From: a candidate division TA06 bacterium B3_TA06
Lineage (GTDB): Bacteria > Hydrothermota > Tepidihabitantia > B3-TA06
Length of the DNA stretch: 35,871 bases
Assembly (NCBI GenBank): GCA_005223075.1
Contig: NJBO01000018.1
Span: 1 to 35,871 of the forward strand
Reading direction: 5' to 3'
The notes beneath the pieces were generated by a model. It did not search any database. It was not told the DNA's origin and saw nothing but the letters and a program-made list of their open reading frames with translations. Shown one piece after another: positions 1,468 through 33,811 of the stretch. Made by a program: the position numbers and the translations under genes. Each line of letters opens with the position of its first letter. The first letter of the stretch is position 1.

Positions 1468-1860
1468 GCCCCCCCCAGTTCGTGCGCGGGGAGATGGTTA
1501 CCAGGGTAGCGGAATGGGGTGAGGGAAAGATGGGGAACAGCCTCACCTGCCTCTGTGCACGAGGGTGCCGCTCAATTCAAATTGCAAACTGCAAATTCTA
1601 ATTGCAAATTTGTCTGGACTGTTTGACGATGAACAGTTGGCCTCCAAGTGCTGTGATTATTGAAAGGTTCTTCTTTAATCGATATTCAACCCTCTGCATC
1701 TTCAATTTGATATTTGCACCCTTGAGGGGGCACTTTGCATTTTGAAATTTTCAATTTGCAATGAGCATGCCCAAGTCGTCCTACTCGACGATCTCAACCC
1801 CCTATTACCTGGTAACGATGTATTGACCATGGACACCCCCGTAACACCCGTAACACACCT
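1462..1860. repeat. Long dispersed intergenic repeat, copy 1
   Basis: About 400 bp that recurs in the same orientation at 8557-9150 with high identity in its first 200 bases. Shared blocks include GCGCGGGGAGATGGTTACC, CTCTGTGCACGAGGGTG, TTGCAAACTGCAAATTCT and, at the far end, CAACGATGTATTGAC-type text or its close variant. It is rich in AATTGCAAATT-type inverted repeats and contains no convincing gene. In both copies the left border abuts a C- or G-run and a minus-strand TTGACA promoter box. This copy ends in CCGTAACACCCGTAACAC, an instance of the GTGTTACGGG repeat. Confidence 0.8.
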
Positions 1861-1910: not shown

Positions 1911-1956
1911 ATGGGGGTGTTACGGGTGTGTTATGGGTGTGTTACGGGTGTTACGG
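1911..1956. repeat. GTGTTACGGG-type tandem repeat after the second corC gene
   Basis: Several imperfect units (GTGTTACGGG, GTGTGTTATGGG, GTGTGTTACGGG) lie immediately beyond the stop codon of the minus-strand gene at 1958. A shorter copy in the opposite sense lies at 1839-1858. The unit recurs at 9190, 12584, 14959, 17093, 18918 and, inside a gene, at 31625. Confidence 0.8.
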
Positions 1957-1957
1957 G

Positions 1958-8562: not shown

Positions 8563-8904
8563 GGGGGGGGTCGTGCGCGGGGAGATGGTTACCAGGGTAG
8601 CGGGATGAGGTGAGGGAAAGATGGACAACAGCCTCACCTGTCTCTGTGCACGAGGGTGTCGCTCAATTCAAATTGCAAACTGCAAATTCTAAATTGCAAA
8701 TTTGTCTGGACTGTTTGACGGTGAACAGTTGACCTCCAAGTGTCCTGATTGTTGTAATGCTCTTCTTTATCGATCTCCAACCCACCCCCCATCTTAAATT
8801 TGATATTTACTCCGTAACCGTCGTCCTTCGGTGCTCCGTAAACGTCGCCCTTCGGTGCATTTTGCGATCTTCAATTTGCAATAAACATGCGTGCTGCTGG
8901 AAGC

Positions 8905-9178: not shown

Positions 9179-9206
9179 TTGACAGTTTGTGTGTTACGGG
9201 TAAACT
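9179..9206 (+). promoter_or_regulatory. Leaderless-type promoter of the first 4-TM gene
   Basis: TTGACA (9179-9184), 16-nt spacer and TAAACT (9201-9206). The -10 box ends 9 nt before the ATG at 9216. The spacer itself contains a TGTGTTACGGG repeat unit. Confidence 0.6.
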
Positions 9207-12583: not shown

Positions 12584-12610
12584 GTGTTACGGTGTTACGG
12601 TGTTACGGGG
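12584..12610. repeat. GTGTTACGG triple tandem repeat
   Basis: Three exact 9-bp units just beyond the terminator hairpin of the second M23 gene. They are one base shorter per unit than the 10-bp GTGTTACGGG form found elsewhere in the window. Confidence 0.85.
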
Positions 12611-14695: not shown

Positions 14696-14783
14696 GTGAA
14701 ACCACAGATTACGCCGATTACACAGATTTATTTAGAAACCTTGAATCAGTGAAATCTGTGCAGTCCGTGGTTATTTCTACCTT

Positions 14784-14812
14784 ATTGTATTTGACGATAA
14801 AGCAAGAGTCAA
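14784..14812 (-). promoter_or_regulatory. Distal asd promoter, duplicated copy
   Basis: Minus strand TTGACT (14812-14807), 17-nt spacer and TACAAT (14789-14784). It is a near copy of the proximal promoter displaced by 117 bp. Confidence 0.6.
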
Positions 14813-14954
14813 GTGAAACCACAGATTACACAGATTACTCAGATTTGGATTTGAAATCATTTAATCTGCGAAAATCTGCGCAATCTGCGGTTGGATTTCC
14901 GGTGGGCTGGAGAGCCTGTGCTCCCTATTTTAAAGAAAGTCCCCGAGTTGTCAA

Positions 14955-14977
14955 AGATGGTGTGTTACGGGTGTTAC
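14955..14977. repeat. GTGTTACGGG repeat at the end of lipoprotein copy 1
   Basis: Two units that supply the TAA stop codon of the minus-strand gene. The sequence before it (TTTTAAAGAAAGTCCCCG and onward, about 14933-14958) is duplicated at about 18886-18917 beside lipoprotein copy 3. Confidence 0.8.
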
Positions 14978-16719
14978 GGGGGGAGGCGGCGTACCTGGAG
15001 ACGATAGTAGTTCTCGCCCTTGACGCAGCATACGTAGCCCGCGTACCGGCCGTCGGGCGAGAAGAAAACGTGCTTGAGCCAGTGTTCGTTTGAAGACATA
15101 AGGGTAATCGCCTCGACGCTACCGTCGCAGGAGCGGAGCCTGGGCGAAGGCCTGTCCCGAACCTCATCCCCAGGTGCCCAATCGACATCCTCATACACCA
15201 GCACCCACTCATCGCCAGGAACGAACCGGAAAGGGGCGGCAGACTGGTATTGGGGTATGTTGACGCAGGATTTCTTGGATTTCAGCAACGACGGATCTGA
15301 AAGCACCTCTGTCGGGATAAGGATATGATCAAAAGGGGGCAGACGTTTGCTTAACCACATGCGCAGACGCAAGAAGCGCTTGTGATTCCGCAGCACCAGC
15401 CAGCGTTTGTCGGGCGAGAGCTCCCAGTCCATCTCCCAGCCCGGTTTTTTGAACCTGCGCAGCTCGGATATCTCGCGAGGTGGTGATTGCAGGTCGGACA
15501 CCGCCGGGAGCTGAACGTAGTTTTCGGGCAAGTCCAGGTCAGGAAACCCCCAGCCACGACGCGGAGAAATGAATAGCGCTTTGCCGGAGGGAGAGAGGAA
15601 AGACTCAGTTGAAGGGTCGTAGGCGTCATCGTACACGTTGGTGGGGATAAGAAGTTCCGCATACGTGGAGTCATCCAACTCAAGATCGTGAACGAGCACC
15701 TGTCGGGATTCTATCTGGTAAGATCGCAAGGGGATCAACTTATGTTTGGCTAGCTCGTAAAGGAATTTGATTTCGGTAAATCTGGTAAGTCTATTGAGAA
15801 ATAAAAGAATACGAAAACGTTTGTAGAAGATATATTGAAATTCGCCAGAAGAAACAACCCGGTCCTGTTCGACAATATAGCAATAGGAAGCGGTAAATTC
15901 AGCTATTGAATCAATCTCCTCGTAAAGCAGCCGGCAGTCGGCAGTGATCCTTACTCGCAGGCTAAGGTTAAGATCCTCAAGCTCAGGAGCCGGTATCCTG
16001 GCGACAACACGCATATCCCGCAGGTCAACCGCCAGGATTTCGTTCGAAGAGAGGTTAATTCTACCAAAAGAAACAATCCCTTTTTCAAGAATATTGTAAC
16101 CGTAACCGGTGAAGAGAAGAAGGTAGGGCTGTTCTACCCGCAGGATAAACCCTTGCACCGCGGCGACGGTTCGCGGCTTGGAAGAGTGCACGTCCACCAC
16201 GTAGAATAGCTCCATGCGGTCAGCCAGCATATTGTTGAACTGGAATTCGGGCAAAGTGCCTGAAACGTTAATCATCTCCACATTCCCTACGTGCACCATC
16301 CGGCTGGTATCGCCTAAAGGCAAGGGGAATAGTATCCACCCCGGATGAAGCTGGTTTGAAAGACGATAACTGGCATTTATGTTTAAATCGAGAGAGTAAA
16401 CCTCGTATGTGTTGCCGAACGCTCGATACGGAGGCTCTCCGCCTGGAATGTTCAGAACGAGCGTATCGCAGGAGCGAGGATTTGCCAGAGGGTAGCGTCG
16501 CAGCATAACCCCCCAGTTGATCGAATCAACCCCGACAAAGGTAGCGACGTAGAGCAGGCTATCTGTGAACCCCAGGATGCTTGACCACTCCCTGTATCTG
16601 CCGGGAAGAGACAAAACAAGCGGCAGTTCAGCCTGCTCAGGGGCTTCTGATTTGGGACATCCCACAACTAAGGCCAAACTGAGATACAAAAAGACTGCTG
16701 CCCAGCTTCTTATCTTCAT
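14974..16719 (-). CDS. Large lipoprotein of a tandem three-gene family, copy 1
   Basis: The 581-residue protein has a signal peptide with lipobox VVGC (lipidated Cys21) and a Ser/Pro-rich start. A long beta-rich body follows, with recurring SPDKRWLVL (C-terminal third) and FFSPDGRYAGY near residue 557, patterns typical of TolB/WD40-like beta-propeller blades. No catalytic motif is visible. The C-terminus YYRLQVRRLPP recurs in both paralogues. Its closest relative in the window is copy 3, very similar over about residues 400-520. The stop codon TAA is itself part of the downstream GTGTTACGGG repeat. No Shine-Dalgarno is present and the promoter is 5 nt from the ATG. The function is unknown. 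Confidence 0.82.
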   Translation of the reverse strand: MKIRSWAAVFLYLSLALVVGCPKSEAPEQAELPLVLSLPGRYREWSSILGFTDSLLYVATFVGVDSINWGVMLRRYPLANPRSCDTLVLNIPGGEPPYRAFGNTYEVYSLDLNINASYRLSNQLHPGWILFPLPLGDTSRMVHVGNVEMINVSGTLPEFQFNNMLADRMELFYVVDVHSSKPRTVAAVQGFILRVEQPYLLLFTGYGYNILEKGIVSFGRINLSSNEILAVDLRDMRVVARIPAPELEDLNLSLRVRITADCRLLYEEIDSIAEFTASYCYIVEQDRVVSSGEFQYIFYKRFRILLFLNRLTRFTEIKFLYELAKHKLIPLRSYQIESRQVLVHDLELDDSTYAELLIPTNVYDDAYDPSTESFLSPSGKALFISPRRGWGFPDLDLPENYVQLPAVSDLQSPPREISELRRFKKPGWEMDWELSPDKRWLVLRNHKRFLRLRMWLSKRLPPFDHILIPTEVLSDPSLLKSKKSCVNIPQYQSAAPFRFVPGDEWVLVYEDVDWAPGDEVRDRPSPRLRSCDGSVEAITLMSSNEHWLKHVFFSPDGRYAGYVCCVKGENYYRLQVRRLPP

Positions 16720-16724
16720 GGGTT

Positions 16725-16752
16725 ATTTTAATTAGGAAACAAAGGTTGTCAA
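16725..16752 (-). promoter_or_regulatory. Leaderless-type promoter of lipoprotein copy 1
   Basis: Minus strand TTGACA (16752-16747), 16-nt spacer and TAAAAT (16730-16725), 5 nt before the ATG. Spacer and upstream sequence are nearly the same as for copy 2. Confidence 0.7.
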
Positions 16753-17106
16753 CTCCTCAAAGGAGTCTTAAGCAACGACCGAGTGGTTGCACTCCACAGA
16801 ACGATTCCCCCTCCCAGGTGGACAGCGTGCCCCTTGGGGCGCCAATTTTACTGCGCCCCATAGGGTAGGGGGATAAAGGGGGAGGGGGAAGCAATAAGAC
16901 ACAGGCCGTTCAGTCAAGTTGAACTGCAGAGATATTGAGATTAGAAGATTTGAAGATGCGAAGATTAAAAGATTGAAGATTAGATTGTGAGCGCGGGTTT
17001 AGTATGCCCCCGTCGGGTGTTCCAACCCGCGGAGAATGGGAATGGCGGACTGGAAAGAGGCGGGAAATTGAGAATGCCCCGCAGGGGTGCGGGGGTGTTA
17101 CGGGTG
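16753..17106. other. Intergenic region between lipoprotein copies 1 and 2
   Basis: No gene seen. From the left it holds a stretch duplicated at 18671-18775 (CTTAAGCAACGACCGAGTGG and onward) and an imperfect CCCCCTCC/GGAGGGGG hairpin (16807-16893). A GAAGATT-type low-complexity tract (16937-16987), a GCGGGTT/AACCCGC inverted repeat (about 16993-17033) and a GTGTTACGGG tract (17095-17115) follow. The tract supplies the stop codon of copy 2. Confidence 0.6.
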
Positions 17107-18636
17107 TTACGGGGGCAATTGGCGAACCTGCAGGCGGTAGAAGTTCTCTCCCTCCAATCGGCAGATGTAACCTAAATGCTTTCCGTCGGGCGAGAAAAAG
17201 GGCCGATGGAAATCTTCTTCGTTTGAGGTGAGAAGCGGGATAATCCGTCTGTCCCTGGAAGGATCGGCGATTCCTACGAGAAAAGGAGAGTCATCGTACT
17301 TATTAATCAGCCCCCAATCTTCTCGCGGGAAAAAGAAGATGCTTCCTTCAAATGCTTGTACCTTAAAGAAAGACCTAGGTTTGAATGCCTTGGGATCAGT
17401 CAAAACCTCAATGGGGGCAAAGATAACTCTACCGGTATCGCGAATGTTCCGGGTAAAGTAATGCAATACGATCCATCTCCTCTCAGGCGAGAGCCACCAG
17501 TCGGTTAACCTTCCTCGAACGCCTGCCTTCTTGAGCCAGGTTACTTCGTATGGCGGGCTTTCGAGGTCCGAAACACCAGGCCCGGGGAAGAAGGGTCTCA
17601 AGAATCCATAGAACCCCGGCGAGTGACACCCCCATCCACCGGACGGTTGAAGGAAAAGCGCTTTGCCGTCAGGGGTATTGAAAGTAAAGGTTGAAGGTTC
17701 GAGATCGCCCCGGTTGATTTCCACCAGGCTGTTAAGAGGAACAAGCATCTGGCGGTGAGCGCTGTCGCCGGATTCCAGCTGCCATTCTGTAATCTCAAGA
17801 CGCTGATATGCGTAGAAAGAAGAATCCCATTCAAGCTCGACATCTCGGAAATCCTGATGACAGTAGAGCAGACGGTTATCTGACGTAAGTCTTGCCCCCC
17901 AGCTATCACCGGCAAGCGGCTGGCTGACCACCTCCTCTTTCTGTAGCAGATCAATTACGACTAACCTGCTGTTTGACGAGTATTCTTTAATGTAACCTAT
18001 ATTCGTAGCGCTTGCATGATAGCCATATCCGGTAAGAACAAGCAGGTAAGGATACTCATAACCCAAAACCGTTCCTTCAATTGCCGCTGTGGTCTTGAGG
18101 TCAGGCGCATGAATATCGACCACGTAGAAGAGTTCATCGTACTTACGTAGATGGTGTTCGAAGAAACCCCGCGCCAGTGGAGGTGAACCGATGCTCCATA
18201 TGTGTCCAAAACGCAGCATATTGGACGTGTCGCCAAGAGGTAGACGTGAGAAGACCAGCCCTTGCCTTGCCATAGGGTAGGGATACATTTCGGTCACATC
18301 GAAGCCTGCATGGAAGTAGTTTTGTATAAAGGTAGGATCGGACGGCGTGTAAGTGATACGGAAAGGAAGAATTAAACTGTCACTTGGAATGGCTTGGGAA
18401 AAAGGAACTCGTCGAACCGTGATTTGATAAGTTGAGTCTGGAAGAAGGGTATACCTGAGCATACAAACGAGGCTGTCGGTGAGAACAAAGTCGTAGTCAT
18501 CGCTCCAACAGGTATAGACGGACAACGGAATGGAAAGCACAAGCGGCAGCTCAACCTGCTCATGAGGCTTGCGGCAATTCGGAAGAAAACCAAGGTTGAG
18601 AAACACGAGAGTTACAAACCAACTTCTTATCCTCAT
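17107..18636 (-). CDS. Large lipoprotein of a tandem three-gene family, copy 2
   Basis: With the ATG at 18636 the protein has 509 residues. A frame starting at 18660 would begin inside the promoter spacer and is rejected. The signal sequence MRIRSWFVTLVFL leads to Cys21, but the lipobox reads LPNC, with an unusual Asn before Cys. The start ELPLVLSIP, a LPLGDTSNMLRFGHI block, a WWLSPERRWIVL blade motif, FFSPDGKHLGYICRLEGENFYRLQVRQLPP-like C-terminal text (here split) and the last ten residues match the paralogues. A beta-propeller-like fold is likely; there are no enzyme motifs. The function is unknown. The promoter ends 6 nt before the ATG. Confidence 0.82.
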   Translation of the reverse strand: MRIRSWFVTLVFLNLGFLPNCRKPHEQVELPLVLSIPLSVYTCWSDDYDFVLTDSLVCMLRYTLLPDSTYQITVRRVPFSQAIPSDSLILPFRITYTPSDPTFIQNYFHAGFDVTEMYPYPMARQGLVFSRLPLGDTSNMLRFGHIWSIGSPPLARGFFEHHLRKYDELFYVVDIHAPDLKTTAAIEGTVLGYEYPYLLVLTGYGYHASATNIGYIKEYSSNSRLVVIDLLQKEEVVSQPLAGDSWGARLTSDNRLLYCHQDFRDVELEWDSSFYAYQRLEITEWQLESGDSAHRQMLVPLNSLVEINRGDLEPSTFTFNTPDGKALFLQPSGGWGCHSPGFYGFLRPFFPGPGVSDLESPPYEVTWLKKAGVRGRLTDWWLSPERRWIVLHYFTRNIRDTGRVIFAPIEVLTDPKAFKPRSFFKVQAFEGSIFFFPREDWGLINKYDDSPFLVGIADPSRDRRIIPLLTSNEEDFHRPFFSPDGKHLGYICRLEGENFYRLQVRQLPP

Positions 18637-18642
18637 ACACCT

Positions 18643-18670
18643 ATTGTAACAAGGAAACAAAGGTTGTCAA
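18643..18670 (-). promoter_or_regulatory. Leaderless-type promoter of lipoprotein copy 2
   Basis: Minus strand TTGACA (18670-18665), 16-nt spacer and TACAAT (18648-18643), 6 nt before the ATG at 18636. Confidence 0.72.
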
Positions 18671-18930
18671 CTCCTCGAATGAGTCTTAAGCAACGACCGA
18701 GTGGTTGCACCCCATAGAACGATTCCCCCTCCTTGGTGGAGGTGGATAAAGGGGGAGGGGGAAGCAATAAGACACAGGCTGGAGTACCCGACAGGGGCAC
18801 GCTGAGCCTGTGCTACCTATTCGACGAACAGCGCGGAGTCAAGGTTTTTCACCTTCAACAAATACCCCTGAGTGCATTTCATGATTTTAAAGAAAGTCCC
18901 CGAGTTGTCAAAGATGGTGTGTTACGGGTG
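18671..18930. other. Intergenic region between lipoprotein copies 2 and 3
   Basis: No gene seen. It repeats the sequence found upstream of copy 1, with a CCCCCTCC/GGAGGGGG hairpin (about 18724-18762). It then has a stretch beside the end of copy 3 that matches 14933-14977 beside copy 1, ending in a GTGTTACGGG tract (18918-18937) that supplies the stop codon of copy 3. The duplications therefore included flanking DNA. Confidence 0.6.
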
Positions 18931-20541
18931 TTACGGGGGCAATTGGCGAACCTGCAGGCGGTAGTAGTTCTCTCCCTCCAATCGGCAGATGTAGCCTACG
19001 TAGCCTCCGTCAGGCGAGAAAAAGGCCTCCTGGAAGTCTGTCTCATTTGACGAAAGCAAGGGAATTGGAGGATTGCCTTGACCGCAGGCGTAAAGAAGTG
19101 GAACCGCACCTGGACGGTTCCCCGTAAGAACCCAATCCTCGCCGGGTGCGAACCGGAACGGGGCGGCAGACTCGTACTGGGGTATATGAACATAGGATTT
19201 CACCGACTCCAGCAACGACGGATCGGCAAGCACCTCCACAGGGATAAGGATGTGATCATAGGGGGGCAGACGTTTGCTTAGCCACTTGCGCAAGCGGGAG
19301 AACTGCTTGTAATAGTCCAGCACCAGCCAGCGTTTGTCGGGCGAGAGTTCCCAGTTCATCTCCCAGCCCGGTTTTTTGAACCTGCGCAGCTCGGAGAGTT
19401 CGCGGGGAGGATTTGTAAGGTCTGAAACCGCCGGAACCTGAACTAACCATGGGTTGTATTCGAACATGTGAAATCCCCAGCCTTGCGGCTCGGAGATGAA
19501 TATAGCCCTGCCCTTATTATCAAGACATCTTTCGGTAGAAGGACTAAACGCAAAGAAAGGGAGGAGGAGTTCGCTGCGTGATACATCTCCGGAGTCAATG
19601 TCCCAGATGAACACGGGTCTGCGCTCCAGCATGTAGTATCGCAACACCTGGGAATTGATCAAGAATCTATACCAGGCAGAAGTCCAGACCTCTTCTTCGG
19701 AAACCAGCTTATCGATCCCTGGGAAATAACGCCAGCATTCAGGCCACTCAACCGTCTCGGTGTAAAGCAGCTTGTGGTCAGGGGTCAGGCAGGCTCGATA
19801 CCATATCTCCCATGCGTCGTTTTCAAGCGTTACCGGCAAACGTCCCATCTCGTGCATGTCTCGCATATCTATGAGGATAAGTTCGCAGCCTTGAACGTAT
19901 CTTGGGGTAGGGTTCACTTCCCCGTAGCTCTGCTCGGTGTAACCGTAACCTGACAGCAAAAGGAGGTACGGGTCGACAAAGTCCACAACCTCTCCTTCGA
20001 CGCAGGCGACCGTTCGGGGGATTGCGGAGTGCATGTCTATTATATAGAAATGCTCCCAACGGCTGCGCAAGGTGCTCTGGAAGGACTCTTGAGAGACGTA
20101 ATCCTGAACGAACGATATTACTTCACCCCGATGAAGCATATTCGAGGTATCCCCAAGCGGCACCGGGAAAAGCTTCCAGCCTCGATGCGGCAGGCGTTCA
20201 AAGTAGCGATCCGAGGCGTATAATTTGACCTCAAACCGCAAGCCGGGATAGAAAAACCAGTCCGAGGAGTCCTTGCAGGGACAAGGAAAAACCTGTGTGT
20301 CGCAGATGCCTGAATTTGCCAGCCAGAACCGGCGAAGCATAAGTCCAAACTCTTCGTTGTCCGTTTGAACCAATCGAACACCATAAAGCAGACTATCAGT
20401 GAGGTCGAAGTATTCGTTGAACCCGCCGTCCACAGAGATGGAAAGTACAAGCGGCAGGCTGGTCTCTTGCTTGGAGGAACGACCGCAACTTGCAAGACAG
20501 ATTAAGATAAAACTCAAGGCGCATGCTCTACCCTCTCGCAT
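18931..20541 (-). CDS. Large lipoprotein of a tandem three-gene family, copy 3
   Basis: A 536-residue protein with a signal peptide and classic lipobox LASC (Cys19). It shares with the other two copies the post-signal LPLVLSI, the LPHRGWKLFPVPLGDTSNML-type block, the DMHSAIPRT strand, a SPDKRWLVL blade and the C-terminus YYRLQVRQLPP. Over roughly residues 370-470 it is nearly identical to copy 1 (FKKPGWEM, SPDKRWLVL, KRLPPYDHILIP), whereas the N-terminal halves differ widely, suggesting recombination or gene conversion. The gene starts 6 nt after its -10 box, and the -35 box contains the stop codon of the upstream gene. The function is unknown. Confidence 0.82.
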   Translation of the reverse strand: MREGRACALSFILICLASCGRSSKQETSLPLVLSISVDGGFNEYFDLTDSLLYGVRLVQTDNEEFGLMLRRFWLANSGICDTQVFPCPCKDSSDWFFYPGLRFEVKLYASDRYFERLPHRGWKLFPVPLGDTSNMLHRGEVISFVQDYVSQESFQSTLRSRWEHFYIIDMHSAIPRTVACVEGEVVDFVDPYLLLLSGYGYTEQSYGEVNPTPRYVQGCELILIDMRDMHEMGRLPVTLENDAWEIWYRACLTPDHKLLYTETVEWPECWRYFPGIDKLVSEEEVWTSAWYRFLINSQVLRYYMLERRPVFIWDIDSGDVSRSELLLPFFAFSPSTERCLDNKGRAIFISEPQGWGFHMFEYNPWLVQVPAVSDLTNPPRELSELRRFKKPGWEMNWELSPDKRWLVLDYYKQFSRLRKWLSKRLPPYDHILIPVEVLADPSLLESVKSYVHIPQYESAAPFRFAPGEDWVLTGNRPGAVPLLYACGQGNPPIPLLSSNETDFQEAFFSPDGGYVGYICRLEGENYYRLQVRQLPP

Positions 20542-24030: not shown

Positions 24031-24064
24031 CCACAGATTTCGCAGATTGGCACAGATTATTTTG

Positions 24065-28987: not shown

Positions 28988-29860
28988 ATGGAACAATCTC
29001 CTGCGGTGAAGTTTTTCTTCAAGCGCTCGAATCCTTACCTGCCTGTGCCCATGCGAATCAAAGATATACGAGTGGAGTCCGAGGACGGGATGCTTAAGAC
29101 GTTTGATCTGGAGTTCGTAAGCCCCGAAGATAAGGAATCTTTCAAGTTCCTGCCCGGTCAGTTCTGCGAGGTTTCTATCTTAGGCAAAGGGGAAGCGCCT
29201 TTCGGTATCGCGTCGGCACCCACCGAGCAAGACTACGTGCGGTTCACCGTAAATCGCGCTGGTTTGGTCACAAATACCATGCACCAGCTTGATGCAGGCG
29301 ATCCCACCGGCATGCGCGGCCCCCTGGGAAACTGGTATCCCCTGGGGCGCTTCAAGGGTTCCAACCTCGTGATTGTCTCGGGCGGCTTCGCGTTTACTAC
29401 CCTGCGGTCGGTCATCCGCTGGCTTCTCGACGGGCACCGAGCTGATTACAAAAACGTTACCGTTATCTACGGTGCGCGCACCCCGGGTATGCTCTTATAT
29501 AAAGACGAGCTGGAGGAGTGGTCCAAGCGCGACGACATCTCGATTCACCTCACCGTGGATAAAGAGGCCGAGGGGTGGAAGGGTCTTGTGGGTTTCGTTC
29601 CAACCGTCACCGAGAAGATTGCCCCAAGCCCGAATAATGCTCTGCTTTTAATGTGCGGGCCACCTGCGATGATACGCTACACCCTGCCCGTGGTTACGAA
29701 GCTAGGCTTCAAACCGGAGCAGATCTACACATCTCTTGAGCGCCGCATGAAGTGCGGGATAGGCAAGTGCGGGCGCTGCAACATCGGGCATTACTACGTG
29801 TGCAAGGACGGGCCGGTGTTTTCCCTCGACCAACTGGAAGCCCTGCCCCACGAGTATTAG
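28988..29860 (+). CDS. FAD/NAD(P)-binding [2Fe-2S] reductase, first gene of the Hdr-like operon
   Basis: The 290-residue protein belongs to the ferredoxin-NADP+ reductase superfamily, dihydroorotate-dehydrogenase-B/AsrB/hydrogenase-gamma branch. An FAD-binding barrel occupies about 20-120 (PGQF 56-59; FGIASAP 72-78). A NAD(P)-binding domain follows (SGGFAFTTLR, 131-140; CGPP 223-226). A C-terminal [2Fe-2S] site has C256, C261, C264 and C272. In related operons such proteins pass electrons between NAD(P)H and HdrC/B or sulfite reductase modules. HdrC and HdrB follow directly, so it is the likely pyridine-nucleotide port of an Hdr-like complex. The FlxA/hydrogenase-gamma labels are alternatives. 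Confidence 0.88.
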   Translation: MEQSPAVKFFFKRSNPYLPVPMRIKDIRVESEDGMLKTFDLEFVSPEDKESFKFLPGQFCEVSILGKGEAPFGIASAPTEQDYVRFTVNRAGLVTNTMHQLDAGDPTGMRGPLGNWYPLGRFKGSNLVIVSGGFAFTTLRSVIRWLLDGHRADYKNVTVIYGARTPGMLLYKDELEEWSKRDDISIHLTVDKEAEGWKGLVGFVPTVTEKIAPSPNNALLLMCGPPAMIRYTLPVVTKLGFKPEQIYTSLERRMKCGIGKCGRCNIGHYYVCKDGPVFSLDQLEALPHEY

Positions 29861-29868
29861 GAGGAATT

Positions 29869-30495
29869 TTGGGAGAAGATAAGGTCATGAACGAAAACCA
29901 AGACGCGGAAGCGGTTGAAGAGGTCACCAAGGCCCAGGAACCGAAAGTGATCAAATTTGATGAATTAGACCCCAACTTCAAATACGAGATTCAGGCCGAG
30001 CCTTCGGGGGAGTTCATCACCAGGTGCTATGCGTGCGGAACCTGCACCGCATCCTGTCCGGTCCGCTCAATCGAAGAGACCTTCAACCCCCGACGCATTA
30101 TCCACATGGCGCTTCTGGGAATGAAGAAGGAAGTGCTATCTTCTGAGTTCGTCTGGCTCTGTTCAACCTGCTATGCCTGTTTCGAACGCTGTCCCCAGGA
30201 CGTGCGCATCACCGAGATGATGAACGCATTAAAGAACCTTGCCGTGAAGAACGGCTACATCCATCCCGCGTTCACCGCACAGATAGATCTTATCCAGGGC
30301 CACGGCAGGCTTTACGAGGCCGATTCGTTCGTCAACAAGAAGCGCGCAAAGATCCGCTTGCCCGAACTCACCGAATCACCGGACCCCATAAAGGCCATCT
30401 TCAAGGCCACCGGACTTTACGAGTATTCTACGGAAGCAAAAGAGTCCAAGGAATTACCTCAATCTGGGAATACCGAGGGAGGCTCTAATGAGTGA
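29869..30495 (+). CDS. hdrC: HdrC-like [4Fe-4S] subunit
   Basis: About 208 residues from a TTG preceded by AGGAGG at 4 nt. An ATG 18 nt downstream (29887) is an equally possible start, with a weaker ribosome binding site. From that ATG, two classical CxxCxxCxxxCP clusters are seen at C47, C50, C53, C57 and C92, C95, C98, C102. The HdrC arrangement is typical: FNPRRIIHMALLG between the clusters and a helical tail without further motifs. An acidic N-terminal extension of about 40 residues precedes the first cluster. In Hdr complexes HdrC wires electrons to HdrB, which overlaps it by 8 nt. Confidence 0.92.
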   Translation: MGEDKVMNENQDAEAVEEVTKAQEPKVIKFDELDPNFKYEIQAEPSGEFITRCYACGTCTASCPVRSIEETFNPRRIIHMALLGMKKEVLSSEFVWLCSTCYACFERCPQDVRITEMMNALKNLAVKNGYIHPAFTAQIDLIQGHGRLYEADSFVNKKRAKIRLPELTESPDPIKAIFKATGLYEYSTEAKESKELPQSGNTEGGSNE

Positions 30496-31399
30496 CGCTA
30501 AGCGGAAGTACGCGCTCTATCTAGGCTGCACCGTTCCTGTTCGTGCGCAGAACTACGAGCTCTCGGCCCGACTTATCGCCAAGCACTTCGGTATCGAGCT
30601 CGTTGACATCCCTGAATTTACCTGCTGCGGCTTTCCTATCAAATCCGTGGATCAGCGCTCTTCCTTAGTCATGGCCGCCCGCAATCTGGCCCTGGCCGAG
30701 AAGCAGGGGCTGGACATGGTCACTTTATGCACCGCGTGCACAGGTACACAGGTCGAGGCCAACCACGAACTTAAGAACGATTCCGACAAACTTGCTGAGG
30801 TGAACAAGATTCTTAAAAAAGATGGTTTGGAATACAAGGGCACGGTGAATGTCCACCATTTCGCGCGGCTGCTCTACGAGGACGTCGGCATCGACCGCAT
30901 CAAACAAGAGGTTAAGGTTGACCTGCAGAACCTTGCCGTGGGTGCGCATCCTGGATGCCACTTCACGAAGCCATCAGAGGCGTTCGAGGACTTCGACGAT
31001 CCTGAGAACCCGCACGTCTACGACGATCTCATCAACGCCACCGGCGCTCGTAGCAATCCATACTCGGAGCGGGAACTCTGTTGCGGCGGTGCGATACTCG
31101 GTATTCGGGTCGACGTGGCTTACGCCATGGTGGGCAAGAAGCTTGCAAGCATCAAGGAGTCAGGCTCCGAGGCGATGATACTTATCTGTCCGTTCTGCAA
31201 CGTCATGTACGAGCAGAATCAAAAAAAGATCGAGAAGGAGCTGGAGCAGGGGTTCGCGATGCCCTGTATCTACTATACCCAGCTTCTGGGACTGGCCCTG
31301 GGTTATAACCCTGACGAGCTGGGCTTCAAGATCAATCGTGTAAAACCTAGCAAGATCCTTGAGCGGATCGGAGTGACTAGTGAAAAAACAACTACCTGA
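30488..31399 (+). CDS. hdrB: HdrB-like heterodisulfide reductase catalytic subunit
   Basis: 303 residues with two complete CCG domains: C14, C46-C47, C81, C84 and C157, C198-C199, C234, C237. In methanogen HdrB each CCG domain holds a noncubane [4Fe-4S] cluster that cleaves the CoM-S-S-CoB disulfide. Bacterial sHdr versions are proposed to act on sulfur bound to carrier proteins. The neighbouring sulfur-carrier genes make a protein-bound persulfide or lipoyl disulfide the attractive substrate (inference). No HdrA flavoprotein gene is in the window; the flavin reductase upstream may substitute. Confidence 0.93.
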   Translation: MSDAKRKYALYLGCTVPVRAQNYELSARLIAKHFGIELVDIPEFTCCGFPIKSVDQRSSLVMAARNLALAEKQGLDMVTLCTACTGTQVEANHELKNDSDKLAEVNKILKKDGLEYKGTVNVHHFARLLYEDVGIDRIKQEVKVDLQNLAVGAHPGCHFTKPSEAFEDFDDPENPHVYDDLINATGARSNPYSERELCCGGAILGIRVDVAYAMVGKKLASIKESGSEAMILICPFCNVMYEQNQKKIEKELEQGFAMPCIYYTQLLGLALGYNPDELGFKINRVKPSKILERIGVTSEKTTT

Positions 31400-31619
31400 C
31401 GAGTTCGAAGACGACATCCCATTAGGGCACGCTCTCTTCCTGATACGGGAAGGGGTGAGGGGTGCCGAGATGATTCCTGAGCTTATGACCTTTCAGATTG
31501 ACGGTAAGCTTTTCGATCCCGATAAGATAGATGCAGATATCTTAGACGAAGAACTCCTTTCCTCTCTTGACAATCTGCGAGATCTTCTCCGGGCCAAGGC
31601 CGAGGAGTGGCCGTCGTGA
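31380..31619 (+). CDS. Small acidic protein in the Hdr-like operon
   Basis: 79 residues from a GTG with GGAG 8 nt upstream, overlapping the end of hdrB by 20 nt in another frame. It is very acidic (DEFEDDIP; DPDKIDADILDEELLSSLDNL), with no signal peptide, Cys or known motif. The HALFLIREGVRGAEMIPELM segment is probably helical (split here as a description only). It ends in a GTGA overlap with the AhpD-like gene. The tight coupling suggests a partner or regulator of the HdrB or AhpD-like protein. I do not recognise a family. Confidence 0.75.
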   Translation: MKKQLPDEFEDDIPLGHALFLIREGVRGAEMIPELMTFQIDGKLFDPDKIDADILDEELLSSLDNLRDLLRAKAEEWPS

Positions 31620-32044
31620 CCCCCAGTAACACACCCTCCCGTACCCGTAACACCCGTAACACAGCACCTCCCTCTGACGCCCGCAATACACATTTTCCTG
31701 AGGAGCCGGAACAAAAGAAAATCTCTAAAGCCCAGGCGCGCTACCGCAGACAGGCAGGGGAGGCGGCTGACGCATTCATGCAGTTCTGGCGCAAGACCAA
31801 GGAAGAAAGCACGGTACCCACGAAGTACAAGGAGCTGATGCAACTGGCGATAGTCCTGGTGCAGCACTGCCGCCCCTGCATCAACCTGCATACCCAGATC
31901 TGCGTCCAGGTGGGGTGTACGCGCGCCGAGATCCTGGATGCGGCTAACATCGCCCTTGCCATGGGCGGCGGGCCGGTCTTTGAATACATCGGATACCTGA
32001 TGCAGGTGCTGGATGAGTTCGATCCCCCCAAAGAGGCAACCTAG
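31616..32044 (+). CDS. AhpD-like (carboxymuconolactone decarboxylase family) CxxC protein
   Basis: The GTG at 31616 overlaps the previous stop and has GAGGAG 8 nt upstream; it gives 142 residues. The AhpD/CMD core (about 45-130) carries the redox motif HCRPC with the following NLH. Cys-x-x-Cys plus a nearby His in this family acts as a disulfide reductase, classically using lipoylated partners in the mycobacterial AhpC/AhpD/Lpd system. A lipoyl-carrier gene lies five genes downstream. The first roughly 25 residues (with TRNTRNT) are encoded by a CCCGTAACAC repeat tract that is intergenic elsewhere, so the N-terminus was apparently created by repeat insertion. Confidence 0.85.
   Translation: MTPSNTPSRTRNTRNTAPPSDARNTHFPEEPEQKKISKAQARYRRQAGEAADAFMQFWRKTKEESTVPTKYKELMQLAIVLVQHCRPCINLHTQICVQVGCTRAEILDAANIALAMGGGPVFEYIGYLMQVLDEFDPPKEAT
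31625..31664. repeat. GTGTTACGGG-family repeat inside the AhpD-like gene
   Basis: AGTAACACACCC, CCCGTAACACCC and CGTAACACAGC units in the complementary sense. They are translated here as SNTPSRTRNTRNT at the N-terminus of the AhpD-like protein. Confidence 0.8.
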
Positions 32045-32070
32045 ATCTGTTTGTAGGAGGGAGAACAGAA

Positions 32071-32322
32071 ATGGATAAAGACCACACATTTGACGCGCGA
32101 GGGATGCTTTGCCCCATACCTGTGCTCAAGACCGCCCAGAAGATAAAAGAGATCGAGATGGGGCAGGTTCTTGAGATTCTTGCCGACGATGAAGGTGCGC
32201 GTGAGGACTTCCCCGCCTGGTGCGACCAGACAGGTAACGAGTTTCTGGGCATGGAGGAAGAGGGTGATACATTAAAATTCTACATCCGTCGGAAGGTCTA
32301 TAGGACTTTCAATCCTTTCTAG
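32071..32322 (+). CDS. tusA: TusA-family sulfur carrier protein
   Basis: 83 residues with the family hallmark CPxP (MLCPIPVLKT, Cys14). In TusA proteins this Cys carries a persulfide sulfur for tRNA thiolation, molybdenum-cofactor synthesis or dissimilatory sulfur metabolism. GGAGGGAG precedes the ATG. The position between the AhpD-like gene and a DsrE/F/H trio argues for a trafficking role in the same relay as HdrB rather than housekeeping tRNA thiolation alone, although TusA-TusBCD in tRNA modification is a fair alternative. A second Cys lies near residue 51. Confidence 0.92.
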   Translation: MDKDHTFDARGMLCPIPVLKTAQKIKEIEMGQVLEILADDEGAREDFPAWCDQTGNEFLGMEEEGDTLKFYIRRKVYRTFNPF

Positions 32323-32331
32323 GATGGATAG

Positions 32332-32682
32332 ATGACTGTCGGTTTTCTTCTACGAACAGGCCCTTACACGTCTCAGAACGTAGACACCTGCTACCAACTT
32401 GCCAGTCGATTTTTGGTCAGGGGGCACGAGGTAAGGATGTTTCTCTACGAAGACGGGGTCTTCAATCTTGACAAAGGAATACAGTCTCCCCAGGAACGCA
32501 ACCTTGCCGAGATAATGGCTGAACTTGCCCGGAAAGGTGCAAAGATACGGGCGTGCGGCACGTGTGCAAAGTTCCGAGGTCTGAAGAGGACCGACATCAT
32601 TGAAGGCACAAAACTTGCGGGTATGGTCGTGTTCTCCAACTACGTCAAGGAGTGCGACCGTTTTCTCTCCTTTGGATTCTAG
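32332..32682 (+). CDS. DsrE/TusD-like sulfur relay protein
   Basis: 116 residues of the DsrE-like fold. C75 and C78 in RACGTCAKFRG lie where DsrE/TusD proteins carry their active persulfide cysteine; here it is a CxxC pair. The C-terminus (FSNYVKECDRFLSFGF) is typical of the family. The gene follows tusA by 9 nt and precedes DsrF- and DsrH-like genes, reproducing the E-F-H order of dsrEFH and tusDCB. It should accept or donate sulfur from TusA. It is the only one of the trio with clear candidate active cysteines. Confidence 0.88.
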   Translation: MTVGFLLRTGPYTSQNVDTCYQLASRFLVRGHEVRMFLYEDGVFNLDKGIQSPQERNLAEIMAELARKGAKIRACGTCAKFRGLKRTDIIEGTKLAGMVVFSNYVKECDRFLSFGF

Positions 32683-32684
32683 TC

Positions 32685-33044
32685 ATGGAAGCAAAGAAGG
32701 TAGCCGTCCTCATCCGTTCGGCTCCTTACGGGATGGCCACAGCTGGCGAGGGTTTCCGCGCATTGATTGGTCTCGCGAGTATGGGAATCCAAACGCACGT
32801 TGTCCTTGTAGACGACGGGGTGATGGTCGCTCTAAAGGGACAGAATCCTGAAGCACTCCAGATGCACAGGCTCTCCGATGCCTACTCTCAGTTGACTGAG
32901 TTCGGTGCCAAACTATACGTCCACCTCCCTTCCCTCACCCAACGCGGACTCTTGCAAGAAGACTGTATATCGGTAGAATTCCTTGATGATGACAAACTGC
33001 GTGGTTTGATCTCATCGGTCGACCACGTTATAACCTTCAGTTAG
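32685..33044 (+). CDS. DsrF/TusC-like protein
   Basis: 119 residues from the ATG at 32685, 2 nt after the upstream stop. An in-frame ATG at 32652 inside the previous gene is less likely. DsrE/DsrF fold: KKVAVLIRSAPYG (4-16), a central VVLVDDGVMVAL strand, LPSLTQRGL near 81-89 and a C-terminal VDHVITFS. Where the DsrE-like protein has its CxxC this one has HLPSLTQRG, with no Cys. The only Cys is C94. A structural role in a heterohexamer like TusBCD or DsrEFH fits. Confidence 0.85.
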   Translation: MEAKKVAVLIRSAPYGMATAGEGFRALIGLASMGIQTHVVLVDDGVMVALKGQNPEALQMHRLSDAYSQLTEFGAKLYVHLPSLTQRGLLQEDCISVEFLDDDKLRGLISSVDHVITFS

Positions 33045-33052
33045 GTGGGAGT

Positions 33053-33346
33053 ATGGAGAATCTCTACCTTGTGACCCGTTCCACCTTTGAGCGCACGGCG
33101 TGGCAGCTGGCTGCCCGTCTGGCCAAGCGAGGCGACACCATCTGCTTTGCCCAGGATGCGGTGCTTGCGGTGAAGGGGCCGAAGGATCTCTCCGAGAAGC
33201 TGGCCGAGCTTGAGTCTTCGGGCGTGGCGGTGCGCTTTCTCAAGGAGGATCTAACGGCCCGGGGGCTTTCTGCCCCGCAGGATAAGGTAATTAACTACGA
33301 TGGGCTTACCAAGCTCATCGAAAACGCAAAGCGTATTATTTCCTAG
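33053..33346 (+). CDS. DsrH/TusB-like protein
   Basis: 97 residues resembling TusB/DsrH: the start LYLVTRSTFER, a strand with FAQDAVLAV near 32-40, then VRFLKEDLTARGL (60-72) and a terminal YDGLTKLIENAKR helix. The Cys20 reported as functional in some sulfur-oxidiser DsrH proteins is absent here (Ala20); a Cys is found at 31. GGTGGGAG precedes the ATG. It completes the DsrE/F/H trio. The next gene is separated by a hairpin. Confidence 0.85.
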   Translation: MENLYLVTRSTFERTAWQLAARLAKRGDTICFAQDAVLAVKGPKDLSEKLAELESSGVAVRFLKEDLTARGLSAPQDKVINYDGLTKLIENAKRIIS

Positions 33347-33373
33347 GAGCAAAGCCCCCAGGACTTTGCTCCT
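33345..33373 (+). terminator. Hairpin between the DsrH-like gene and the lipoyl carrier gene
   Basis: A 10-bp stem (AGGAGCAAAG, 33345-33354, with CTTTGCTCCT, 33364-33373) overlapping the stop codon. No T-tract follows, so partial termination or transcript processing is possible within the operon. Confidence 0.45.
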
Positions 33374-33391
33374 AAAGACAAAGGAGGTAGC

Positions 33392-33811
33392 ATGGCGGAG
33401 ATAGAAGGATACAATCTTCCCGATGAGCTGTTTTATCACAAGGAACACATGTGGGTTCGCAAGGAAGGCGATGTCATTCGTGTTGGCCTCAACGACTTCA
33501 GCCAGAAGCTTTCCGGTGAGCTCTCCTTCATCGAACTGCCTGAGACCTCCTCTGAGGCCCAGGCAGATGAAGTGATTGGCTCATACGAGACCGGCAAGTG
33601 GATGGGCAAGATCTACTCGCCTGTGGCAGGAGAGGTCGTAGAGGTCAACGAAGAGCTCGAGGACGATCCTACGCTCGTGAACTCCGATCCCTACGGGAAG
33701 GGCTGGATATTTACCATGAAACCAGCCGATTCCGCTGAGGTTGACGCTCTCATGCACGGCGAAGCGGCTGCCACCTGGCTCAAGACGGAGATCGCCAAGC
33801 ACGCGAAGTAA
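33392..33811 (+). CDS. Lipoyl carrier protein (GcvH/LbpA-like)
   Basis: 139 residues with the GcvH fold: an N-terminal HKEHMWVRKEGDVIRVGLNDF stretch (split in description), ELPE near 48-51, and ETGK69WMGKIYSP, placing K69 exactly eight residues before the conserved Pro as for the lipoyl-lysine of GcvH. No GcvP, GcvT or Lpd gene is near. Company with HdrB/C, TusA and DsrE/F/H instead resembles LbpA, the lipoate-binding protein required by the sHdr sulfur oxidation pathway. AAAGGAGG fixes the start. A glycine-cleavage H protein encoded apart from its partners is the alternative. Confidence 0.9.
   Translation: MAEIEGYNLPDELFYHKEHMWVRKEGDVIRVGLNDFSQKLSGELSFIELPETSSEAQADEVIGSYETGKWMGKIYSPVAGEVVEVNEELEDDPTLVNSDPYGKGWIFTMKPADSAEVDALMHGEAAATWLKTEIAKHAK

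Follow-up and report, generated by a model that had tools for sequence, protein, structure and literature searches.

A family-specific microsatellite apparently translated as the N-terminus of an AhpD-like protein

The AhpD-like locus

The window, i.e. the whole stretch of 35,871 nucleotides analysed here, is contig C18 of a 2.41-Mb genome in 42 contigs (G000), which forms with its sister species (G001) and G002 to G007 the family designated f1, G008 being the order-level outgroup; all the genomes compared are draft assemblies. It carries an ORF whose product is assignable to the AhpD-like/carboxymuconolactone decarboxylase (CMD) family by domain as well as by motif (Table 1). The CMD domain PF02627 is matched at 9.6e-16 with 58 bits for a cut-off of 23, the search having been run on the 145-aa form of the ORF starting at GTG 31607, and TIGR00778 is matched with 31.2 bits for a cut-off of 27.8. 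In addition, E73, C85, C88 and H92 are invariant across four AhpD-like orthologues and fit E-x11-C-x2-C-x3-H, which we take to be the catalytic motif of the family. The best named relative of the locus is the metagenome-assembled genome E44_bin36 of Candidatus Stahlbacteria (phylum Candidatus Stahliibacteriota). The start codon overlaps the stop of an upstream ORF, for which no match was found in Pfam or NCBIfam. At 28988-33811, the AhpD-like gene clusters with genes for HdrB- and HdrC-like heterodisulfide-reductase-like subunits, TusA, two DsrE-like proteins, a TusB/DsrH-like protein and a GcvH-like lipoyl protein, and having Hdr parts and a lipoyl carrier as neighbours suggests a pathway of thiol/sulfur transfer.

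Table 1. Features of the AhpD-like locus and copies of the repeat elsewhere in the window
Feature	Position	Strand	Remarks
AhpD-like (carboxymuconolactone decarboxylase family) ORF	31616-32044	+	142 aa; GTG 31616, stop 32042-32044
GTGA overlap	31616-31619	+	GTG start of AhpD-like ORF and TGA of upstream ORF (31617-31619); kept in sister species (L031)
Upstream 79-aa ORF	31380-31619	+	201/206 nt identical to sister species from 31413 on
GAGGAG, Shine-Dalgarno-like	31602-31607	+	8 nt 5' of GTG 31616; unchanged in L031
Repeat-derived tract of AhpD-like ORF	31620-31696	+	apparent residues ~2-27, TPSNTPSRTRNTRNTAPPSDARNTHF
Perfect part of the tract, two tandem units	31644-31662	+	CCCGTAACACCCGTAACAC
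Block between tract and CMD domain	31697-31771	+	divergent but protein-constrained, without start codon; 29/75 nt differ from sister species, codon positions 9/3/17
Repeat	1838-1856	+	intergenic
Repeat	1917-1957	-	right after TAA stop of ORF 1958-2884; missing there in sister species
Single repeat unit	9191-9200	-	15 nt ahead of ORF 9216; kept in G003
8-bp repeat variant CGGTGTTA	12584-12609	-	intergenic
Repeat	14962-14980	-	gives TAA stop of ORF 14974-16719; unit number different in G001 and G003
Repeat	17095-17113	-	gives TAA stop of ORF 17107-18660
Repeat	18919-18937	-	gives TAA stop of ORF 18931-20541

The protein as encoded begins MTPSNTPSRTRNTRNTAPPSDARNTHF. From 31620 to about 31696 the order is CCCCCAGTAACAC, CCCGTA, CCCGTAACA, CCCGTAACAC and a decayed CGCAATACACAT, the repeat unit across the tract being a degenerate 9-bp CCCGTAACA. 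Within the ORF, the 10-mer CCCGTAACAC is matched at 31623-31632 (one mismatch), 31644-31653 and 31653-31662, with an extra CCCGTA at 31638 and a decayed unit, CGC AAT ACA CAT reading RNTH, at 31682-31693. The initial annotation had attributed roughly the first 25 residues to the repeat and had placed a start codon and a GAGGAG site just before it, all of which agrees with the features in Table 1; as to the repeat itself, the description stands for the two perfect units, the remainder being degenerate.

Translation of the tract

A second in-frame GTG lies at 31607 and is, with that at 31616, the most upstream in-frame start of the AhpD-like ORF. A start downstream of the repeat, for example near the EEPEQKK segment, was looked for; there is no in-frame ATG, GTG or TTG between the tract and Met55 (31778-31780), which itself lies inside the conserved domain. 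Over the 30 codons preceding Met55 (31682-31771), 33 of 90 nucleotides differ from the sister species, distributed 10/3/20 over the three codon positions (chi-square p=0.0013), which shows the stretch to be under protein-level constraint in this frame. RNTH is retained in both species and three of its four codons have changed, at third positions only (CGC/CGT, AAT/AAC, CAT/CAC), these four codons being the part of the constraint that falls within the tract proper. Such a third-position bias, together with the lack of a later start, implies that translation begins at or above the tract, barring a non-canonical codon, and the tract is thus apparently translated as the N-terminus of the protein, as the initial annotation had supposed. 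The GAGGAG motif is also found inside the upstream gene of G005, whose AhpD-like gene starts about 150 bp further downstream; since the motif is unable to serve the start there, the one at 31602 would at most be co-opted and is no proof of initiation. In an AlphaFold model, shallow since built on a four-sequence alignment, residues 1-29 have a pLDDT below 50 and helices begin at residue 32, so that the repeat-coded tail is predicted to be disordered.

Orthologues and age of the extension

In the sister species (L031 and L033, which are one locus on contig C7 of G001), the tract is 42 nt (14 codons) shorter, with the frame kept, the same GTGA in front and RNT still read. The orthologue from G005, of the same family and with 79% identity, has no tract but a spacer of about 150 bp and begins MNPKDKSEQKVISKAQ. 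Likewise, that from G008, of the same order, lacks the tract and has an unrelated short N-terminus as read from the ATG at L035:1459; no AhpD match was obtained at E<=1e-15 in G002-G004. Only one other genome, that of the sister species, has a tract-bearing orthologue. The simplest reading is that the tract was gained on the branch of G000 and G001, and the N-terminal extension is, from these sequence comparisons, lineage-specific and repeat-derived.

On either side of the tract, identity between the two species is 97-98% (5/206 and 9/270 differences) vs. 37% divergence (33/90) at 31682-31771, with a Fisher p of about 1e-18; matches of 150 bp or less were left out of the BLAST comparison of the locus. 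In the alignment to the sister species the divergent block starts inside the tract, and we read 31632-31772 as a recombination-like mosaic with one boundary in the repeat.

Distribution of the repeat in the window, the genome and the family

With at most one mismatch, CCCGTAACAC occurs 20 times in the window vs. 1.55 expected, the largest count among 100 shuffles being 5. Window tracts other than that of the AhpD-like ORF all lie at gene ends or in gaps, in line with the intergenic character that the initial annotation had given to the repeat; this character does not extend to the genome sample described below. Three similar consecutive minus-strand ORFs at 14974-20541 each end in ...PP-TAA within the repeat, and the sister species is devoid of a counterpart of about 14813-18928.

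Genome-wide, G000 contains 288 exact copies of the 10-mer vs. 6 of the reversed control, and 55 exact copies of a 17-mer vs. 0. This 17-mer is present in 8 of 61 genomes, namely all eight members of family f1 (57 copies in G004), and in 0 of the 53 others. Location was assessed on a sample of 68 tracts, drawn from the window and from 40 stretches of G000 that surround 90 of the 100 places listed first among the 288 for the 10-mer; the sample covers part of the genome and its genes are crude codon-score calls, the first 17-mer loci (L001-L030), which these 40 stretches replaced, entering no count. Outside predicted genes lie 31 tracts (13.1 at random), inside them 30 (49.9) and on their edges 7 (5.0), i.e. 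genes have fewer tracts than expected at random but are far from free of the repeat; 17 of the 30 inside are antisense. A start within 12 nt of a same-strand stop was found for 14 of the 68, the random mean being 0.73 and the largest of 2000 trials 6. Six of these 14 are automatic since the CCG-TAA of the repeat itself ends the gene, and the other eight are still in excess. Most tracts consist of 1-3 units only. Copy number varies, one gene end having one unit in G001, two in G000 and more in G003, and tracts can be present or absent at the same stop between sister species. The repeat thereby shows the 6-9-nt unit, head-to-tail arrangement, many loci, lineage restriction and copy-number change of dispersed short tandem repeats, and departs from their predominantly intergenic location by the above counts.

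Five of the six reading frames of the unit are open (PVT, RNT, CYG, VTG and LRV) and one contains a stop (CCG TAA). PVT linkers derived from the repeat precede a C-terminal GVYFIRL-type region at L066, L091 and L096. At L097 (G000:C3, 1891-2045), a pair of palindromic companions of 75 bp, in frame and flanked by CCCGTA units, makes up the C-terminal tail of a histidine kinase. The palindromic element is about 75 bp long, reads CCCCTTCGGGGC ... CGGAGC/GCTCCG and is CCCGTA-flanked, its hairpin being found at 9 sites in the G000 sample; Rfam gave no match in the window, L097 or L079. In two neighbouring 4Fe-4S proteins (L067:1473-2655, G000:C1), antisense units code CYG beside the cluster cysteines, one of these proteins having a longer insert, CYFLKDGSTNYGNAPKGYGCYG, in its second Fe-S motif. 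Unit spacings are multiples of 3 in 34 of 42 cases within genes vs. 14 of 23 outside over the 68-tract sample (p=0.07), and this spacing over all genic tracts is not claimed as evidence.

Regarding a possible mover, Y1 transposases occur in 7 of 9 genomes, including G009 and G010, which are without the 17-mer, and none in G004 with its many copies; a RAYT/Y1 transposase as mover of the repeat is thus uncorrelated with its presence and not supported. Viral contigs as carriers were also set aside: in 2.9 million contigs an exact 17-mer was present in 39 stretches, as a single match in 37, which was taken as background. No description of the repeat was found in the literature searched, and the 10-mer searched as text returned, among the matches listed, papers on unrelated organisms and methods.

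Recurrent capture behind start codons

The signature RTGACCCGTAAC was searched in ten genomes (the f1 members, G008 and G009) and has 33 sites in f1 vs. 8 for the reversed control, distributed as 8 in G000, 9 in G001, 3 in G002, 7 in G003, 3 in G004, 2 in G005, 0 in G006 and 1 in G007; it has 0 in G008 and G009 (control 4 in G009). Among 30 of these f1 sites examined as loci, 18 begin an ORF that is 80 codons or longer, and in 14 of these 18 an RTG is the most upstream start. The remaining four long MTRN openings (L211, L219, L220 and L230) are internal codons of ordinary genes and were dismissed as chance matches. Two further ORFs, at L227 (83 aa) and L217 (109 aa), are mostly repeat and probably not genes.

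In a BamB-like beta-propeller protein, MTRNT comes right after AAGGAGGCGYA-ATG, i.e. a strong Shine-Dalgarno and start, in 5/5 members of the genus, and the tract is always in frame, with lengths of 27, 45, 22, 19 and 29 codons, the differences being multiples of 3 and mostly not of 9; 0/3 other f1 members (G005-G007) have it. V/A-ATPase subunit B has an MxRNT-type N-terminus in G002-G007, i.e. six of eight f1 genomes across three genera, whereas G000 and G001 have a tail of 20 residues in which no clear RNT is seen; its G008 counterpart, which begins MKEIIDYQTI, has no extension. In a CDP-alcohol phosphatidyltransferase (PgsA-like), an ATGA overlap is followed by RNT tracts in G000, G003 and G004; RNT is present in G001, where the gene is cut by the contig end, G006 and G007 have traces, and no RNT tract was found in G002 and G005. 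A LUD-domain protein in G001 is a further case. Over the PgsA-like and BamB-like N-termini (eight sequences), 22/22 unit spacings are multiples of 3 vs. 14/23 outside genes (p=0.0009, orthologues being not independent).

Other candidates were not retained. DUF763 (L101) is ambiguous as a clean case since G006 and G007 read RNTADLPLHG from divergent codons, and CoaE (L083 in G000, L181 in G003) is suggestive, G001 and G004 being without tract and the start codon uncertain. At L083 (G000:C2) and L181 (G003:C58) an antisense tract adjoins the P-loop of the dephospho-CoA kinase, and the repeat may supply the CoaE start in G003 because the only upstream in-frame starts are GTGs within it. Capture behind start codons is, as judged from the ORFs, recurrent in several unrelated genes and species of family f1, which supports the earlier view of the AhpD-like case as a dispersed repeat recruited into a coding sequence.

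Comparison with known repeat systems

Rickettsia palindromic elements (RPEs; Ogata et al., 2000) are protein-coding dispersed repeats, as presented in the available text of PMC10969869 and PMC2229807. Like them, the f1 repeat is lineage-specific and dispersed, in frame in unrelated housekeeping genes and tolerated via an open frame. Unlike the RPEs, which those texts give as stem-loops of about 105-150 bp, the AhpD tract is a direct tandem microsatellite of 9-bp units with no palindrome, and the coding sites of the f1 repeat are typically right after start codons, at stops, in linkers and in tails. An RPE-like palindrome is not in the AhpD tract, but the 75-bp companion flanked by the same unit exists in G000. 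The TAACTGA heptamer repeats of marine Beggiatoaceae and cyanobacteria are also short, direct, dispersed and lineage-patchy and overlap upstream stops; in the portions available of PMC4679880, repeat-bearing proteins are few, with repeats mainly at protein ends, and coding-region repeats are those with units of three-fold length. Their unit is 7 bp with stops in three forward frames, mostly intergenic upstream of starts according to the same portions, whereas the f1 unit is 9 bp, open in five of six frames and often inside genes. With the GGGNATC repeats of Xanthomonas and Nostoc, the f1 repeat shares 6-9-nt units, genome-wide spread and positions near stops and between aligned ORFs; the accessible part of PMC4692102 describes the former as rarer in coding regions and with a four-unit G-quadruplex preference, vs. 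mostly 1-3 units here. MITE/ERIC/YPAL in-frame fusions are similar in that mobile repeats form the ends of proteins, in one case contributing part of a signal peptide (PMC2229807, in its available text). They may differ from the f1 repeat in that terminal inverted repeats or target duplications did not come to light for the AhpD tract. The f1 repeat acts like an RPE, as protein-coding dispersed DNA, without being one, and is of the dispersed short-tandem-repeat kind save that it is not predominantly intergenic. In-frame protein-coding repeats are already known, and what appears new is the microsatellite form seen in f1, for which the family offers unusually rich material for comparison.

Origin of the N-terminus and alternative explanations

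Very probably, the family-specific microsatellite CCCGTAACA, placed behind an upstream stop, became the N-terminus of the AhpD-like protein. The repeat would have arisen or inserted at the junction of two genes of an operon, right behind the upstream TGA, and, owing to the GTGA overlap, the following sequence is read in the stop-free RNT frame (GTG ACC ... CGT AAC ACC). The same holds for RTGA overlaps in general, where the downstream gene automatically reads in the open RNT frame any tract beginning after the stop. The tract would later have changed length through in-frame indels and decayed by point mutation, leaving the CMD enzyme domain untouched, and the tail is probably a near-neutral disordered appendage, for which a role is possible but not needed. 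More generally, the repeat would be tolerated inside genes because its unit is 9 bp with five of six frames open, and many copies would lie at gene ends because the sixth frame (CCG TAA) supplies the stop. Slippage and recombination presumably lengthen and shorten the tracts, new copies would be seeded in some way, and selection would retain those behind stop or start codons, in linkers and in tails.

Were a non-canonical codon beyond the tract, e.g. ATC 31721, to serve as the start of translation, the repeat would be an untranslated spacer and its coding aspect coincidental. This ATC is conserved in both species, GAGGAG occurs again at 31700-31705 and the AhpD-like gene of G005 has a short N-terminus behind its spacer, but this second GAGGAG is 15 nt from the ATC and missing in the sister species, RNTH is kept through synonymous changes, and other f1 genes have the same tract behind an ATG preceded by a strong Shine-Dalgarno, which together make such a start very improbable. 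An assembly error, a pseudogene or a chance resemblance of a native N-terminus is hardly credible: the assemblies are drafts and DUF763 illustrates native codons resembling the repeat (RNTADLPLHG), yet a second, separate assembly also has the tract and the GTGA start, the Cys/His motif lies in an intact domain, and neither the two perfect tandem units nor the 55 exact 17-mers in G000 vs. 0 in the reversed control look like chance.

The repeat could also be a selected regulatory element of operon junctions, acting in translational coupling or as an RNA or G-rich structure, with the protein reading as a side effect. The excess of tracts within 12 nt of same-strand stops (14/68 vs. 0.73 expected) speaks in this direction, as do the regulatory readings given to heptamer repeats near start and stop codons in the available text of PMC4679880 and PMC4692102. 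Six of the 14 stops come automatically from the repeat itself, however, tracts are gained or lost at the same stop between sister species, 30/68 lie in predicted genes with 17 antisense, and most have 1-3 units, so that a regulatory element is rather unlikely as the primary explanation. Slightly less probable is an adaptive extension, i.e. an N/T/R/P-rich disordered tail of use for localisation, for interaction or for the efficiency of initiation. V/A-ATPase subunit B has kept RNT tails over three genera, as has the BamB-like protein of 5/5 genus members, but the tails are free to vary in sequence and length (19-45 codons in the BamB-like protein), subunit B of G000 and G001 is without clear RNT motif and the AhpD tail is predicted unstructured.

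Beyond the capture of the microsatellite by the AhpD-like gene, a bolder and rather improbable extension is that a repeat system that is still active seeds its copies preferentially at start and stop codons, RTGA junctions being repeatedly given expandable N-terminal tails. If true, it would be a continuing source of new protein termini on core proteins such as V/A-ATPase subunit B, the phosphatidyltransferase and the AhpD-like protein. That non-coding or selfish DNA turns into protein is mostly deduced from isolated old examples. Family f1 offers many young ones, of different ages and in orthologous genes, with none in outgroups and with short, long or decayed forms depending on the species, so that one can count directly how far N-terminal additions are tolerated, how the repeat spreads and how selection keeps the frame. 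For annotators, trimming to the conserved domain is no way to place starts in f1, and repeat-coded termini and linkers will turn up in automatic gene calls.

Other repeats in the window

Another dispersed repeat, of about 83 bp and with many copies in genomes of the family, lies at 16805-16888. A second microsatellite family is formed by CACAGATTA-type short tandem repeats of 8-9 bp at 14703-14889, 16938-16984 and 24032-24058, and a third by AATTGCA 7-bp tandem repeats at 1574-1762 and 8665-8702.
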